Of a stretch of DNA of 64,000 nt, positions 18,601 through 25,268 are shown piece by piece; position 1 is the stretch's first letter, and every line of letters starts with the position of its first letter. Both the position numbers and the translations under genes were made by a program. The notes under the pieces are model-generated. The model was not told where the DNA came from and searched no databases. It saw only the letters and a list, made by a program, of their open reading frames with translations. Source of the stretch: Erysipelotrichaceae bacterium (GTDB lineage: Bacteria; Bacillota_I; Bacilli_A; Erysipelotrichales; Erysipelotrichaceae); assembly GCA_030694975.1 (NCBI GenBank), contig JAUYTU010000010.1, positions 124,001 through 188,000 on the forward strand, written 5' to 3'.

Positions 18601-19137
18601 ATGGGACAACACACCCGAGAAATTGATGAATGTCTTTTAAAACTTAAAGATAATGACCATGATGCAATGGAATTATTGATTTCTAAAACCCAACGCTTGC
18701 TCTACATGATTTTGAGGGGATTTTTTCACCGTGAACAAGATATTGCGGATGCCATGCAAGAAACCTATCTAAGAGTCTATCAGAATATTCATAAATACAA
18801 AGCACATCATTCAGGTATGGCATGGATTTCAAGAATTGCCAAGAATATTGCGTTGGATATATTAAGAAAAAGAAAACACGAACAAAATCAGGACGATATT
18901 TCTGAGATAGCCGATCCAAACCATGATTCGATACAGTTTAAGGATTTACTTCATCAAATACACCCCTTTACCAGCCCATTGCAAAGATCGATTATTATTA
19001 TGCATCTTGTTGAAGGTTATACATTTATGGAAATTGGAACACTCTTAGATTTATCAACCTCAAATACGAAATATCATTACCAAAAAGCTATGGAAAACAT
19101 CCGCAAGCATTTGGATAAGGAGGACTTCTATGACTGA
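18601..19137 (+). CDS. RNA polymerase sigma factor, ECF type
   Basis: 178 residues with both ECF domains: region 2 (about 10-85, with QDIADAMQETYLRVY and WISRIAKNIALDILRKRK) and region 4 (about 115-170, with EGYTFMEIGTLLDLSTSNTK as helix-turn-helix). It has a GAGGG site before the ATG. The next gene overlaps its end by 8 bases and encodes a single-pass membrane protein, the usual arrangement of a sigma factor with its anti-sigma partner. The sigma factor probably autoregulates the operon and responds to an envelope signal; target promoters were not identified. Confidence 0.9.
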   Translation: MGQHTREIDECLLKLKDNDHDAMELLISKTQRLLYMILRGFFHREQDIADAMQETYLRVYQNIHKYKAHHSGMAWISRIAKNIALDILRKRKHEQNQDDISEIADPNHDSIQFKDLLHQIHPFTSPLQRSIIIMHLVEGYTFMEIGTLLDLSTSNTKYHYQKAMENIRKHLDKEDFYD

Positions 19138-19885
19138 CTTCAAACAAAAATTCGAAGAACGATTGACCGCAGAAGTCAATCAACAATATCAAATGTTTGA
19201 GTTAAGAGAGTTTAAGAAAATTGAGCATAAAAGCCCAAAGCAACTGAATCATCTATGGTTACAGCTTGCCATGATTCCCATTATCATCAGTCTCTCACTT
19301 TATGGTGCGAATATTTACAATTATGCAAAATATGAGCATTATCGAAAATACCTAACGGTAATCGATGCATTAAAATTAGACGATGCATCAACATACAATC
19401 ATTCTTTTGAAGAAGTCATAAATAGCAGTTCCTCTATTGTTTTTGTTGAATTTATCAAGTTAGAATCGTTTGAATATAAGATGGAACTCAAATCTCCTTT
19501 TTTTAAACCCGGTATTTATAACATGGTTGAAACCATAGCCCATCTCAATACCATTGAAACTATCAAAGGTGATACCGAAAAACTCATTAAAGTCTCGGTT
19601 AATATCTTTTTTAAAGATGAGAATCCATGGAATGGTACAGATGTTTCCTATGATCCACTTCCTATCCCCGAATTTGAATCAGGCACTCAGTGGATCTTAT
19701 TTCTTCAAGATAAGGAAGGCGAACATTACCAATACTTCCCTTTGTGGACCTATCAGATTATCAATGGATCAGTAGTATCACAATATGCATTGGAAAACAC
19801 AGATAAACATCGCAATCCGGATAGATACACTGGCTTAACATACAATCGGATGATCAATCAAGTAAAGAGTAATATTCGAAAGTGA
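19130..19885 (+). CDS. Probable membrane anti-sigma factor
   Basis: 251 residues: a 40-residue cytoplasmic part rich in Lys/Glu, one membrane segment (about 43-64) and a large external domain of about 185 residues. No zinc-finger (HxxxCxxC) motif is visible, so it is not a standard ZAS-type anti-sigma factor. The start has GGAGGACTTCT before the ATG and overlaps the sigma gene, implying fixed stoichiometry. The external domain could be the sensor. Assignment as anti-sigma factor rests on gene context and topology. Confidence 0.65.
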   Translation: MTDFKQKFEERLTAEVNQQYQMFELREFKKIEHKSPKQLNHLWLQLAMIPIIISLSLYGANIYNYAKYEHYRKYLTVIDALKLDDASTYNHSFEEVINSSSSIVFVEFIKLESFEYKMELKSPFFKPGIYNMVETIAHLNTIETIKGDTEKLIKVSVNIFFKDENPWNGTDVSYDPLPIPEFESGTQWILFLQDKEGEHYQYFPLWTYQIINGSVVSQYALENTDKHRNPDRYTGLTYNRMINQVKSNIRK

Positions 19886-20062
19886 TTTATTCCTGATACT
19901 AACACATTGGTGAGCTATACAGTCGATGTCTTTAAGAATGACTTCTTTACAATATTCACACAACAACCCTTTTGCCGGATGGCAACGCTGGATCATAAGG
20001 GTCTGTCTTAAACTTCTCCACTCATGACTGTTATAGAAGTCTGACAATGTTTGATGTTTCAT
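19835..20062 (-). pseudogene. HNH endonuclease, truncated phage remnant
   Basis: Reads FYNSHEWRSLRQTLMIQR, then LLCEYCKE, the zinc-binding start of phage HNH nucleases, but it diverges just after IDCIAHQ where the catalytic His-Asn-His would begin. The ATG overlaps the stop of the terminase fragment and has GAGGAG before it. The 3' part runs over the end of the opposite anti-sigma gene, consistent with truncation by a deletion. Confidence 0.65.
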
Positions 20063-20399
20063 TACCACTCCTCTGCTTTCGCTAATTGTTCACGAAGCTC
20101 TAACTCCTGTCGTTTCAGCTGTAACATCTGTGGATTGTCGGAGTAGTTTTGTGGATCTTCATTCTCAATAAACCAAACAACGCTCCGGTATCCCGTGGTT
20201 GATGTTTCTTGTTGATTTCGGTATAAGTGACAGAGTTTCCATTCTCGGTCTTGGTATAGACTTTCTTCTCTTCATATTCATATCCCAAGGCTTTTTTAAT
20301 CAGAGCATTCTCTAATTCGGTGATCAGGGTTTCCTTCCCCTTTTTTAAAGCCTTAACAACTTCAGGGTACTTGGTTTTAAAGATCATCCTGCGCAACAA
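20062..20399 (-). pseudogene. Phage terminase small subunit, truncated and frameshifted
   Basis: The frame gives LENALIKKALGYEYEEKKVY and later KKHQPRDTGA, the pattern of TerS/XtmA-type proteins (A-x-G-Y-x-Y-E-E then P-D-T). At about 20183-20188 the frame shifts; the continuation in the next frame reads SVVWFIENEDPQNYSD and runs to a stop at 20062 (tail LREQLAKAEEW). The 5' part of the gene is missing and the fragment starts at the stop codon of merA, so a deletion or recombination joined them. Confidence 0.65.
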
Positions 20400-22024
20400 G
20401 ATAACTTCGAAATATCTTTATCAAAGGTTAGTGCAGCCAATTTTAAACCTTCAGCCATTGTTAAGTAAGGCGCAAGTGTCTCCTTTAAATTCTCAATTGT
20501 TAAGCCGAATTTGACCACCAACGTTGCAGCATAGATTACTTCGCCAGCATTCTCTGAAACGATGTGGACGCCCAATATTTTACGTGTGTTCGCATCTGCA
20601 ACAAGCTTAATCACTCCATCAGTATCGTGGTTAACCAAAGCTCTTGGAACTGAACCTAATTTTAAAACAGAAGTAATAACATTATAGTCATTTTCTTTAG
20701 CTTGTTTTTCTGTTAATCCAACGGTTGCTAATGAAGGGTGTGAAAAAATCACACTCGGCACAACTGTTAAATCGAGGCTTAGTTTCTTTTCTCCAATTGC
20801 ATTTTCCGCTGCTAATCTACCCATATAAGCTGCAACATAAACAAATTGTGGGTTTAGTGTAACATCCCCAGCTGCATATATATCTGGGTTACTGGTTTGC
20901 GCAAGTTCATTGATAATTATTTCATTTTTCACACCTGTTTTAACATTTGCTTTTTCCAAATCTAATGAACTTGTGTTTGGATTTCTACCTGTTGCGACCA
21001 ACAATTGTTCTCCCTCGACAGTGAAACTTTCATCATTTAACGTATAATGAACACTTTTAATTGAATTATGTTGCTCAACTCTTTCATAGCTGACACCCTT
21101 TATGATTTTAATTCCTTGCTTAATTAGCGATTCTTCTAAAGATTCAGATACCTCAAAGTCGTATTCTTTTAGAAATTCTTCACTTCTTTGCATAAGAATT
21201 ACTTCTGATCCAAGATTATGATAGAGAAGTCCCAACTCAACTCCAATATATCCTGATCCAATCACAAGTAAACGCTTAGGAACTTTATCTATATTAAGCA
21301 ATGTTGTGCTAGTTAAGTATTCGACACTTTCTAATCCTTTTATCTTCGGTATCAAAGGGGAAGCACCCGTAGCAATCAAAAAACGCTTGGAAGTATAAAG
21401 TTGATCAGCAACTTTTATCTGATTTTCACTTATGAATTTCGCAGCACCGATGATTAATTGAATTCCATATTCATCAATCAAATTAACGTATTTTTGATTA
21501 CGAAGATTGTTGACCAATTCGTTTTTTTGTTGCATCAATGAATCCAAATCAACCGCTTGTGCAGACAGCTTAATGCCTGAAAAAGCATTGGTTTTACCCA
21601 AAGAGTTGATTTCCCCAGCTCGTAAGAGTGTTTTAGATGGGACACAGCCAAAATTAACACATGTTCCTCCAACGATATTTCTTTCAATCATGCCCACTTT
21701 TGCTCCAAGCTCAGCGGCTTTGATGGCTGCAGAAAAGGCAGCACTTCCTGATCCAATAATGAGCAAATCAAAATCAGTCTTGTGATCTACAGAATTTTCC
21801 TTAGCAATTTGCAGTTCTTCAATAACTCCAGGCTTATAATTTGTAATACCAAAAGAGTTTCTTAATTGAGTTATATGTTCTTTATCTGCTAATTCAAATG
21901 AAACTTCTCCCTTAACATAATTTACTTCAATATTTAAAGCATTTGCTTTTGCAAGAATCTTCGCAACATGAATCTCACAGCCAGTACAAGTCATTCCTTT
22001 GACTTTCATTCTATATTTACTCAT
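20384..22024 (-). CDS. merA: Mercuric reductase
   Basis: 546 residues from the ATG at 22024 (GGAGGACACT before it). An N-terminal heavy-metal-associated domain (residues 1-66, GMTCTGC) is followed by an FAD/NAD(P)H disulfide reductase: IIGSGSAAFSAA, redox-active GGTCVNFGCVPSK, a GSGYIGVELG NAD-binding motif, AAGDVTLNPQ, and the MerA-specific C-terminal cysteine pair in LSCCAG. All catalytic parts are present, so it should reduce Hg(II) to Hg(0) in the cytoplasm. No merR, merT or merP lies beside it. Its stop abuts a phage fragment. Confidence 0.93.
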   Translation of the reverse strand: MSKYRMKVKGMTCTGCEIHVAKILAKANALNIEVNYVKGEVSFELADKEHITQLRNSFGITNYKPGVIEELQIAKENSVDHKTDFDLLIIGSGSAAFSAAIKAAELGAKVGMIERNIVGGTCVNFGCVPSKTLLRAGEINSLGKTNAFSGIKLSAQAVDLDSLMQQKNELVNNLRNQKYVNLIDEYGIQLIIGAAKFISENQIKVADQLYTSKRFLIATGASPLIPKIKGLESVEYLTSTTLLNIDKVPKRLLVIGSGYIGVELGLLYHNLGSEVILMQRSEEFLKEYDFEVSESLEESLIKQGIKIIKGVSYERVEQHNSIKSVHYTLNDESFTVEGEQLLVATGRNPNTSSLDLEKANVKTGVKNEIIINELAQTSNPDIYAAGDVTLNPQFVYVAAYMGRLAAENAIGEKKLSLDLTVVPSVIFSHPSLATVGLTEKQAKENDYNVITSVLKLGSVPRALVNHDTDGVIKLVADANTRKILGVHIVSENAGEVIYAATLVVKFGLTIENLKETLAPYLTMAEGLKLAALTFDKDISKLSCCAG

Positions 22025-22045
22025 AGTGTCCTCCATCTTTATAGA

Positions 22046-22086: not shown

Positions 22087-22310
22087 CCCTAGATTATACT
22101 TTTAATCTTCTACATTCAAGAATTATGATGTGGAAGATAACCTTAGTATTATATTTTACCCTGAAAACGCTAAATCTGCACTCGGAAAGCCTATTTTTCA
22201 CCCATTTAAGTGAACGTCGCAATAGTAAATCATTTTGAATACATGTAGAGGCACGAAAGTGAGTGTTCCATGCTTTGAGCTATAATCAAGCAATTTCTAA
22301 TTATTTGTGG

Positions 22311-22316
22311 TATAAT
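22311..22316 (+). promoter_or_regulatory. Extended -10 promoter for the HEAT-like/nuclease-like pair
   Basis: TGG followed by TATAAT is a TG-extended -10 element, about 85 bases before the start of the next gene; an AAT/AAC-rich microsatellite follows it. No strong -35 is seen. Confidence 0.45.
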
Positions 22317-22399
22317 AATAATAACAATAATAAGAATATTTCGATTCTAGTTATTTATGTCGAATGATGTCTTTATTTTGTAATGAAAGAGAGTGTAAT

Positions 22400-22786
22400 A
22401 TGCTTAGAAATGATATACAAGGATTAATTCTATCTGCATCGGATGCGGATGAAACTATTAGACAAGAGGCAATGAGTGAATTAAAGTCATTGAATCCACC
22501 GGATGCCAAAGAAGTGTTAGACTTAGCACTAAATGATCCACGTCCAGAAGTGAGAACGGTAGCGACTGATATAATCGTTGAAAAGGTGATTGAGGAGGTC
22601 AGTGTCGAGTCGAATGATCAATCGTACGAGCAGAGCATTAAGCAGGATGATTTAGAAGTAAAAAAGCAAGAAATTATCGATGATAGAAAATCTTTACAAA
22701 ATAAGCTTTGGATCTTCTTTGCCGTTTTTGGTATTTCAAGTTTAATATTTTCGATTCTGATTTTGATTTTCATGTATTTAATGTAA
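22400..22786 (+). CDS. HEAT-like repeat protein with C-terminal membrane anchor
   Basis: 128 residues from the ATG at 22400 (GAAAGAGAG before it). Residues 10-60 look like one or two HEAT-like helical hairpins (IRQEAMSELKSL, PRPEVRTVATDIIVEKV); an acidic linker follows, and residues about 104-127 form a tail anchor. The domain should face the cytoplasm. It lies 23 bases before the possible PD-(D/E)XK gene and probably shares a transcript with it. I recognise no named family. Confidence 0.65.
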   Translation: MLRNDIQGLILSASDADETIRQEAMSELKSLNPPDAKEVLDLALNDPRPEVRTVATDIIVEKVIEEVSVESNDQSYEQSIKQDDLEVKKQEIIDDRKSLQNKLWIFFAVFGISSLIFSILILIFMYLM

Positions 22787-22809
22787 TAACATGGTAAAGG
22801 AACCTAAAA

Positions 22810-23379
22810 ATGTCAAAAAAACTTTCACTATCTTCTATATGTTCTGATGATGAGAATCGGATAATTGATTATTTTGGATTAACTCTAAAAGTCATTTACT
22901 ATAATGATCTACATGCGTTTCAAAATATAATCAACTCATTGCTACAAGACAACCAAGAGATGAATACACTTCCAATGGTGCGACCACAAAATGATCAGGA
23001 GAGTGGTATACTTGATTTATTAATTACTCAAAAATCTTATGCAATATACTTTGAACCAAAAGGACGTGATTGGTTAAATAGCCAACAAATTGAAGCTCAC
23101 TTAAGCGAACTGGATGTTCAAGATTGTGATGTTAAAATTATGTTTCTTTTATCCAACTTAAAAGAAACGAATCTTCATGAAAGAATTAAAGAATCAATCG
23201 CTATTGCCAAGAATTTAGACATCATACTTCAACCGATAACTTATGATGATTTGCTAAAATCTATAGAAAACGAATCGGACAATTTTGATAGTTCTTTTTT
23301 AGACAATATCGTCGATTTTAAAAACTATCTTAACATTCCGAATTTTCCTTCAGACATGGAGAACGCGACCATCAGTTAA
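22810..23379 (+). CDS. Possible PD-(D/E)XK nuclease-fold protein
   Basis: 189 residues, soluble. The core reads Asp69 (GILDLLITQ), then a strand ending Glu82-Pro-Lys84 (YAIYFEPKG), a helix with Gln93 and His97 (QQIEAHL) and a following strand VKIMFLLSN. Asp-x(12)-Glu-x-Lys followed by a Gln-bearing helix is the signature order of restriction-endonuclease-like folds. No close family came to mind, so this is a motif-based call. It is paired with the membrane-anchored HEAT-like protein and followed by a strong terminator. A non-nuclease member of the fold is possible. Confidence 0.45.
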   Translation: MSKKLSLSSICSDDENRIIDYFGLTLKVIYYNDLHAFQNIINSLLQDNQEMNTLPMVRPQNDQESGILDLLITQKSYAIYFEPKGRDWLNSQQIEAHLSELDVQDCDVKIMFLLSNLKETNLHERIKESIAIAKNLDIILQPITYDDLLKSIENESDNFDSSFLDNIVDFKNYLNIPNFPSDMENATIS

Positions 23380-23401
23380 ACTTTACTTTGGAATCAACTA
23401 T

Positions 23402-23436
23402 AAAAAGCAACCTGAAATTGGTCAGGTTGCTTTTTT
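23402..23436 (+). terminator. Strong terminator after the nuclease-like gene
   Basis: Arms AAAAAGCAACCTGA / TCAGGTTGCTTTTTT with a 6-base loop. Confidence 0.85.
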
Positions 23437-23661
23437 CTAGTCATTTATTTTGGAATGTTCTTACCTTATGACAATCGCATTCCGTTCTCGGATCTAGCTC
23501 TCTACAATATCACTCCCGGGTCCAACTGGTCAGCCGCGATCAGTGTTGATCCACTTCTCTCAAAAGAATAATGCGAGGCTCTTGGGCTTTGCGCTATTTT
23601 TGATGAGTGATCCGACAAGTTCTTCTAACTCATCTTTTTTTCACCTAGCAAATTATCATTT
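23437..23661. other. Short gene-free spacer
   Basis: A 38-codon frame from about 23456 has no ribosome site and no known similarity. Base composition here is higher in GC than in the flanks, so it could be a relic of inserted DNA. Confidence 0.3.
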
Positions 23662-24865: not shown

Positions 24866-25062
24866 TAAAAAAGTACCCCATTATGTTGGGGTACATGCAA
24901 TCTAAACTCTGGGGGGAGAGCTATCTTACTATTAGATTGTATCAGACATTAAGATCCCTTACAATCATATGGCACTTTACAATGATGAAAAACGTAACAC
25001 ATGGTATTGTAAAGCCAATTACCTCAATGATGTAAGAGAACTGATTTCTCATATCAAACGAT
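24866..25062 (+). pseudogene. Integrase remnant: duplicated leader and first 32 codons
   Basis: A diverged copy of 1788-2000. It includes the GTACCCC hairpin (24873-24894), the CTCTGGGGG and TATCTTAC words, and an ATG at 24969 followed by MALYNDEKRNTWYCK and NYLNDVRELISH, 24 of 32 residues equal to the integrase at 1891. Similarity stops near 25060; the frame then continues into unrelated sequence. The ribosome site is degraded (AAGATCCC in place of AAGGAGGG). It is the scar of a second related element. Confidence 0.75.
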
Positions 25063-25268
25063 GGTTAAATAAACAATGTTCTGAACGCATAATCCACGTA
25101 TCGTTACTTATTAAACTTCATAATCAAACGGATCAAAGCATCTTCAAAAGAAACATGAAAACGGATCGTTGAGCTGCTCAATTGTGAATAAATCATAATA
25201 TAAGTGTATAAATTAGATAACACACCTTATAACTTCAATTTGCGGATAAAACAATACGTTTTACTGAT
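25063..25268. other. Gene-free spacer after the integrase remnant
   Basis: AT-rich sequence between the integrase scar and the stop of a leftward c-di-GMP gene. No repeat, RNA element or gene recognised. Confidence 0.35.

Follow-up and report, generated by a model that had tools for sequence, protein, structure and literature searches.

A diverged, trimmed PD-(D/E)XK nuclease homologue encoded directly behind a HEAT-like membrane protein gene in an Erysipelotrichaceae bacterium

Two small neighbouring genes in a 64,000-nucleotide stretch of an Erysipelotrichaceae genome (the whole stretch is hereafter called the window) raise the question of what the second gene encodes, and whether the two form a working pair. 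A sequence-only reading of the locus had described a tail-anchored HEAT-like protein encoded 23 bases before a 189-residue candidate PD-(D/E)XK nuclease, and had proposed a small defence module. Both the coordinates and the single C-terminal hydrophobic segment of the first protein were confirmed. The layout of the locus, in window positions, is as follows:

22308..22316, plus strand: extended -10-like TGGTATAAT, a candidate promoter with weak evidence, 83 bases 5' of the P0001 start
22400..22786, plus strand: P0001, a 128-aa HEAT-like protein with one C-terminal transmembrane segment
22712..22768, plus strand: putative tail anchor of P0001, residues 105-123 (Kyte-Doolittle, 19-residue window)
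22810..23379, plus strand: P0002, a 189-aa diverged, trimmed PD-(D/E)XK nuclease homologue
23402..23435, plus strand: 14-pair hairpin with A/T flanks, 22 bases 3' of the P0002 stop (-21.9 kcal/mol, z -5.5)

The start of P0001 was taken as 22400, a longer start at 22364 being present in the ORF list. Its stop lies 23 bases from the start of P0002 on the same strand, and this gene layout, together with the strong hairpin after P0002, suggests that P0001 and P0002 form one operon. The hairpin, which was absent from a simple terminator scan, is likely an intrinsic (bidirectional) terminator of the unit. At the other end, the extended -10 pattern occurs six times in the window with 5.4 occurrences expected by chance, so that the candidate at 22308-22316 is no better than chance. 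The gene 3' of the unit, recognised by eye as CorA, has the opposite orientation. Frames with several stops occupy 23440-23660 and by eye resemble a decayed transposase or similar.

Searched as a single sequence, P0002 matched nothing in Pfam or PADLOC, and its matches in NCBIfam (two) and PHROGs (three) lay far below any cut-off (best E 0.028). Ten matches among PDB sequences reached E 0.42 at best, and, at the limits applied, plasmids, phages, and viral and genome contigs returned no match. Two weak leads (27-31% identity, E 2e-4 and 1e-3) emerged only from a six-frame search of 98 related genomes; both are 337-aa proteins (in genomes G057 and G070), whose PDATITQESFKIVVETK region aligns with LDLLITQKSYAIYFEPK of P0002; two further members of the same nuclease family were found in G419 and G141. 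A profile of four relatives, built without P0002, gave P0002 39.9 bits, compared with 10.4 bits for the best of 2,000 shuffles of P0002 and 5.1 bits for the next best of the 241 window ORFs. With a profile of 91 relatives the score rose to 62.1 bits, versus 9.5 for the best of 2,000 shuffles; the core aligned by the four-relative profile spanned residues 15-174, and that aligned by the larger profile 25-175. These relatives comprised 80 kept from 109 in a scan of named genome contigs and 11 from viral contigs, some of them the same contigs. An 85% identity filter reduced the 91 to 64, of which 63 were aligned with P0002 (L110, cut short, was omitted), and the identity of P0002 to its relatives is 15-24%, with a median of about 19%. 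Because motifs absent from P0002, among them HYFxRY and KENxxTxN, served as seeds for the genome-contig and viral-contig scans, these scans are blind to further short forms of its kind.

The family reached in this way is an unnamed group of PD-(D/E)XK proteins of about 340 aa (L021-L111; P0003-P0006; for example L021:8001-9029) that, by organism names, spans several phyla, with hosts including Vibrio, Christiangramia, Rubrobacter, and many Bacillota. At cut-off it was found to be covered by no family in Pfam or PADLOC, and it may be described under another name in the literature. Its first half is homologous to P0002 over residues 15-175, and P0002, judged by this alignment, appears to descend from, or to share descent with, the family. 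Searched against PDB sequences, the family profile gave 22 matches, none convincing (best E 0.03). Pfam PF14281 (PDDEXK_4) matched weakly in 7 of the 64 aligned sequences (best E 3.5e-4), and P0002 itself had no match to it. In PADLOC, one PDC-M15A model weakly matched 12 of the 64 N-terminal halves (best 2.3e-5); this was not read as identity with PDC-M15A, as only two of ten full-length relatives match any PDC-M15A model (best 4e-5). The second half of the relatives, a C-terminal domain of about 155 aa, has invariant Y27, Y44, K47, F110, K122, L155, and W160 in the 46 members aligned (alignment A6), with no PDB match at E ≤ 10 and no Pfam family common to more than one of the 46.

Among the 63 relatives seven columns never vary (Y30, Q60, D69, Q74, E82, K84, and Q93 in P0002 numbering), and P0002 keeps every one of them, along with E15 and H97. 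Codons of conserved residues are located as follows:

22852..22854, plus strand: Glu15 codon, N-terminal helix; same residue in at least 97% of the 63 relatives
23014..23016, plus strand: Asp69 codon, putative catalytic D; invariant in the 63 relatives
23053..23061, plus strand: Glu82-Pro83-Lys84 codons (E-x-K); Glu and Lys invariant in the 63 relatives
23086..23088, plus strand: Gln93 codon; invariant in the 63 relatives

Asp69, Glu82-x-Lys84, and Gln93 had already been singled out from the letters alone; they stand where claimed, and the invariance of all four in 63 relatives goes far beyond chance. Elsewhere P0002 has diverged strongly. It retains 13 of the 26 columns that are at least 95% conserved, the lowest share among the 64 sequences; the next lowest (15 of 24) belongs to L046, whose N-terminus is missing. 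Gone are H6, Y7, F8, R10, and Y11, that is, the HYFxRY motif, whose aligned residues in P0002 are S6, L7, S8, I10, and C11, as well as T19, N21, R28, F101, F145 (Tyr instead), C174, L179, and R184. The C-terminal domain is absent too, the protein ending at residue 189. Since the catalytic set stayed while the HYFxRY motif and the C-terminal domain were both lost, we infer that these two parts may serve one function, such as recognition or assembly.

A structural model of P0002 computed with the 63 relatives (pLDDT 75.1, pTM 0.72) contained helices at residues 14-32 and 34-44, strands at 70-73 and 77-82, and a helix at 91-99, followed by a strand at 108-114, a helix at 120-134, and a strand at 138-143; a single-sequence model (pLDDT 42) was discarded. 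The putative catalytic residues take the nuclease order on these elements, with D69 just before strand 70-73, E82 at the end of strand 77-82, and K84 next. Foldseek against the PDB returned nothing at E ≤ 0.001 (rank 1 EcoT38I, E 0.02). In VIA-align, in which a Z below 8 can reflect a common arrangement without a clear match, the first row was the BspD6I small subunit (PDB 2p14; Z 7.3, rmsd 4.8, 133 aligned), and the rows down to the seventh were five Nt.BspD6I (large subunit) entries at Z 6.7 and Avs4 at Z 6.6. Lower rows included EcoT38I, McrC, HerA-DUF, Cap4, MspJI, and Can2, mixed with unrelated ones (RNA polymerase subunits, ERCC1, and many CD38 entries, Z 5.5 and below). The best BFVD match of the model was a PD-(D/E)XK nuclease superfamily protein (E 2.6e-5, query TM 0.59, rmsd 10.9). 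With moderate confidence, the model thus points to a restriction-nuclease-like alpha/beta fold, and structure prediction, which the sequence-only reading had suggested as a check, did not yield a fold unlike that of restriction endonucleases. Because Z stayed under 8 and the Foldseek search against the PDB was non-significant, the fold counts as support for the sequence result and as no standalone proof of it. Homology, the invariant catalytic residues, and, moderately, the model together lead us to identify P0002 with high confidence as a PD-(D/E)XK nuclease homologue, as had been proposed.

The surroundings of the relatives bear on a possible role in defence. Neighbours were counted at 80 genome loci, up to 8 kb on each side (both flanks were full in 34), with single-sequence restriction-type queries named by eye (HsdM, HsdS, HsdR, McrB/C, DUF262, and a 5mC methyltransferase). 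Restriction-type genes lay within 8 kb at 17 of the 80 loci (14 within three ORFs) and serine or tyrosine recombinases at 13 (four within three ORFs). One or the other was present at 28 loci and neither at 52, counts that are possibly lower bounds and whose yardstick is an arbitrary ABC transporter query, found at 6 of the 80, with no random-locus control. Some of the relatives thus have neighbours of these kinds; the pair as a defence module stays a proposal. No activity, target, or phage phenotype was found for any relative. At 8 of the 80 loci, homologues of a 548-aa gene (L105:6352-7995) stand directly upstream of the 340-aa nuclease. The L105 protein carries PF14281 (96.9 bits), a shorter 335-aa form in L018 does not, and the gene and the 340-aa nuclease possibly form a two-nuclease prophage cargo unit.

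The upstream protein belongs to a much narrower group. The single hydrophobic segment of P0001 spans residues 105-123 with a Kyte-Doolittle mean of 2.8 and stops five residues short of the C-terminus; the protein scores 22.5 bits with Pfam HEAT_2, below the cut-off of 27.7. In PADLOC-DB 2.0.0 it aligns over 46 residues of the 1,972-position HEAT-ARM_XIII (20.1 bits); P0002 has no match there, and neither protein matches over most of a model. The HEAT-like call holds by way of a paralogue in the same genome, which passes HEAT_2 at 31.7 bits:

G000:C34:37968-38351, minus strand: P0001 paralogue, a 179-aa HEAT protein with two hydrophobic segments, 51% identical to P0001

P0001 lacks roughly the first 10 residues of this paralogue and everything after the first hydrophobic segment (the second segment and the tail). 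Because the paralogue and the three same-genus homologues that were read have two segments, where P0001 has one, its tail anchor is, to judge from these alignments, a cut-back form of the membrane part of the family. P0001 is 51% identical to the paralogue versus 32-41% to the homologues in G001, G005, and G002, and between the two copies in the source genome nonsynonymous change is far below synonymous change (pN 0.29, pS 0.82 over 126 codons). In our reading of these comparisons, P0001 would be an old, lineage-specific duplicate that has been kept as a protein. At E ≤ 0.001 the HEAT family occurs in four of six other same-genus genomes and in none of 91 searched genomes outside the genus, and P0001 had no match on plasmids. 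The genus-specific HEAT membrane proteins (L004, L008, L009, and L011) share its HEAT stretch and first hydrophobic segment. A companion gene of 97-113 aa lies near the HEAT gene in three of the four same-genus loci (L008, L009, and L011; the fourth, L010, was left out of the neighbour reading) and in L004, the locus of the paralogue; one companion protein of this type had no Pfam match. Together with L124, these loci carry a cluster, specific to the genus, of small genes for membrane and HEAT-like proteins (97-113 aa and 160-179 aa), with a 336-340 aa gene as well in two genomes.

Do the two genes travel together? Co-occurrence, which the sequence-only reading had named as a check, was not seen beyond the source genome. 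The 91 loci of the relatives contain 1,300 ORFs, and none of these matched the HEAT family (best E 0.07), with full 8-kb flanks at only 34 of the 80 genome loci; no HEAT homologue was thus seen beside the ~340-aa relatives. Conversely, no P0002 nuclease match was found in the six other same-genus genomes, five of which are assemblies 62-79% complete. A single instance of the pairing is therefore on hand, that of the source genome. Since the paralogue in the source genome and the three same-genus HEAT loci that were read have other neighbours (no nuclease was seen beside the paralogue), the family of P0001 is independent of P0002. Among the literature matches listed, as far as their available excerpts extend, none described the pairing of a nuclease of this type with a HEAT membrane protein. 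The short form of the nuclease is just as singular. At E ≤ 0.001 the family profile matched in 4 of 272 same-family genomes and 7 of 392 phylum genomes, two overlapping sets that both include the source genome. Three of the seven phylum matches were weak and partial (E 2e-4 to 7e-4), and the strong ones besides the window's were frames of 338-362 aa, the window's own frame being 193. Among the 91 members from the contig scans, the one shorter than 300 aa is L110, a cut sequence of 285 aa. No short form other than P0002 was seen, and the full-profile genome searches were able to show others.

The ground on which the unit stands shows signs of phage and of rearrangement. The phage scar of the sequence-only reading is present 2 kb upstream, where a fragment at 20118-20399 (minus strand) shows similarity to the small terminase subunit of phages (43 phage records, best E 1e-5). 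An integrase remnant, mentioned in that reading without coordinates, was not confirmed, the one candidate examined, at 24969-25169, having no integrase match in Pfam and no phage match. Beside the terminase fragment, the ORF at 19838-20068 (minus strand) looks HNH-like by eye and has no HNH match in Pfam. On its other side, 20384-22036 (minus strand) encodes a pyridine nucleotide-disulphide oxidoreductase with an N-terminal heavy-metal-associated domain, MerA-like by eye, for which the six other same-genus genomes hold no close orthologue (best 34%). For the empty-site comparison, CorA was found at the limit used in G001 and G005 only, of the six other same-genus genomes. In G001, sigma/anti-sigma genes like those at window positions 18601-19885 lie on the other side of CorA, giving a different gene order, and the unit therefore sits in a stretch rearranged relative to G001; the G005 contig begins 800 bases from CorA, and an anti-sigma-like fragment alone is visible there by eye. 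Two further loci (L122:7140-8575 and L123:5209-6695) hold a two-gene pair that by eye resembles an AbiE-type toxin-antitoxin, in L122 adjoining sigma/anti-sigma genes that resemble those left of the window's nuclease unit.

How the two proteins might work together is best approached through better-known nucleases. The nuclease parts of the defence effectors Avs4, Cap4, McrC, and HerA-DUF, which we take to be of PD-(D/E)XK type, are among the VIA-align rows of P0002 (Z 4.8-6.6), and none of them is among its matches in the sequence search. These nuclease parts are fused to, or assembled with, sensors of their own. The BspD6I small subunit, the best structural alignment, is similar in size to P0002 (186 vs 189 residues), with 14% identity in the structural alignment and no sequence match. 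It pairs with a nickase whose chain has about 580 residues, whereas the adjacent same-strand gene of P0002 encodes a HEAT membrane protein. The BspD6I small subunit is reported to act only with a catalytically active large subunit (PMC6261011).

The reading that we prefer, tentatively and at somewhat less than even probability, is that P0002 is a diverged nuclease core and P0001 its membrane tether partner, in a two-gene unit of one lineage. Most likely P0002 would cut DNA by means of metal ions that Asp69, Glu82, and Lys84 coordinate. By analogy with the BspD6I small subunit, it would probably need a partner to be activated or targeted, because it has no counterpart of the HYFxRY motif or the ~155-aa C-terminal domain of its relatives. 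The best candidate partner would be the co-encoded, and presumably co-transcribed, P0001, acting as a HEAT-repeat adaptor that its one C-terminal helix anchors in the membrane. P0001 would bind P0002 and hold it at the membrane, where phage DNA enters, and the unit may then serve in defence. A more far-reaching version, to which we give only a small chance, is a membrane-bound restriction unit: a stand-alone PD-(D/E)XK core that, having shed the recognition parts of its family, would work through a genus-specific HEAT adaptor duplicated and cut to one anchor for it, with cleavage at phage DNA entry.

It is nearly as likely, and likewise somewhat short of an even chance, that the HEAT gene is a bystander, because the pair was found repeated nowhere outside the source genome. 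P0002 would then be a solo diverged nuclease from a mobile element, and the HEAT duplicate would lie upstream by chance, sharing a transcript at most. The absence of a HEAT homologue from all 91 relative loci fits this account, as does the presence of the HEAT family in four other same-genus genomes where no nuclease match was found. The nearby terminase fragment, the rearrangement relative to G001, and a GC content of 31% for P0002, 35% for P0001, and 39% for the window point the same way. Yet chance adjacency sits poorly with the tight spacing, the shared strand, and a single terminator hairpin after both genes, and P0002, without parts that its relatives carry on their own chain, asks for a partner.

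A membrane tether could also be a keeper. P0002 might be a cell-damaging nuclease sequestered at the membrane by P0001 until infection or stress, an arrangement suggested by the place of the membrane protein at the head of a unit of two small genes and by the intact invariant residues of P0002. Toxin-antitoxin pairs are usually conserved as pairs and mobile, whereas this pair was found once, and neither protein has a Pfam or PADLOC toxin-antitoxin match, which leaves the idea improbable. We consider it equally doubtful that P0002 is the decaying, no longer working leftover of a full-length 340-aa nuclease, as the loss of the C-terminal domain and HYFxRY motif and the phage debris nearby might suggest, since P0002 retains all seven invariant positions at a median identity of about 19%, its frame stays open to a stop close to a strong hairpin, and downstream there is no convincing trace of the C-terminal domain (in a tblastn search with the C-terminal parts of 90 relatives, two rows touch 23329-23450 at chance level, E 6.3 and 9.0).

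Whichever account of P0001 holds, an orphan protein that the family libraries searched do not cover is now tied to a widespread, unnamed nuclease family that sits in part near restriction and prophage genes, and this family of about 340 aa is a better target for study than the P0001-P0002 pair of the window. Within it, P0002 is a natural experiment on the roles of the HYFxRY motif and the C-terminal domain, both of which it has lost without losing the invariant residues. Should the HEAT protein be the partner that replaces them, the locus would offer a simple example of how a membrane adaptor of the host can re-target a nuclease.
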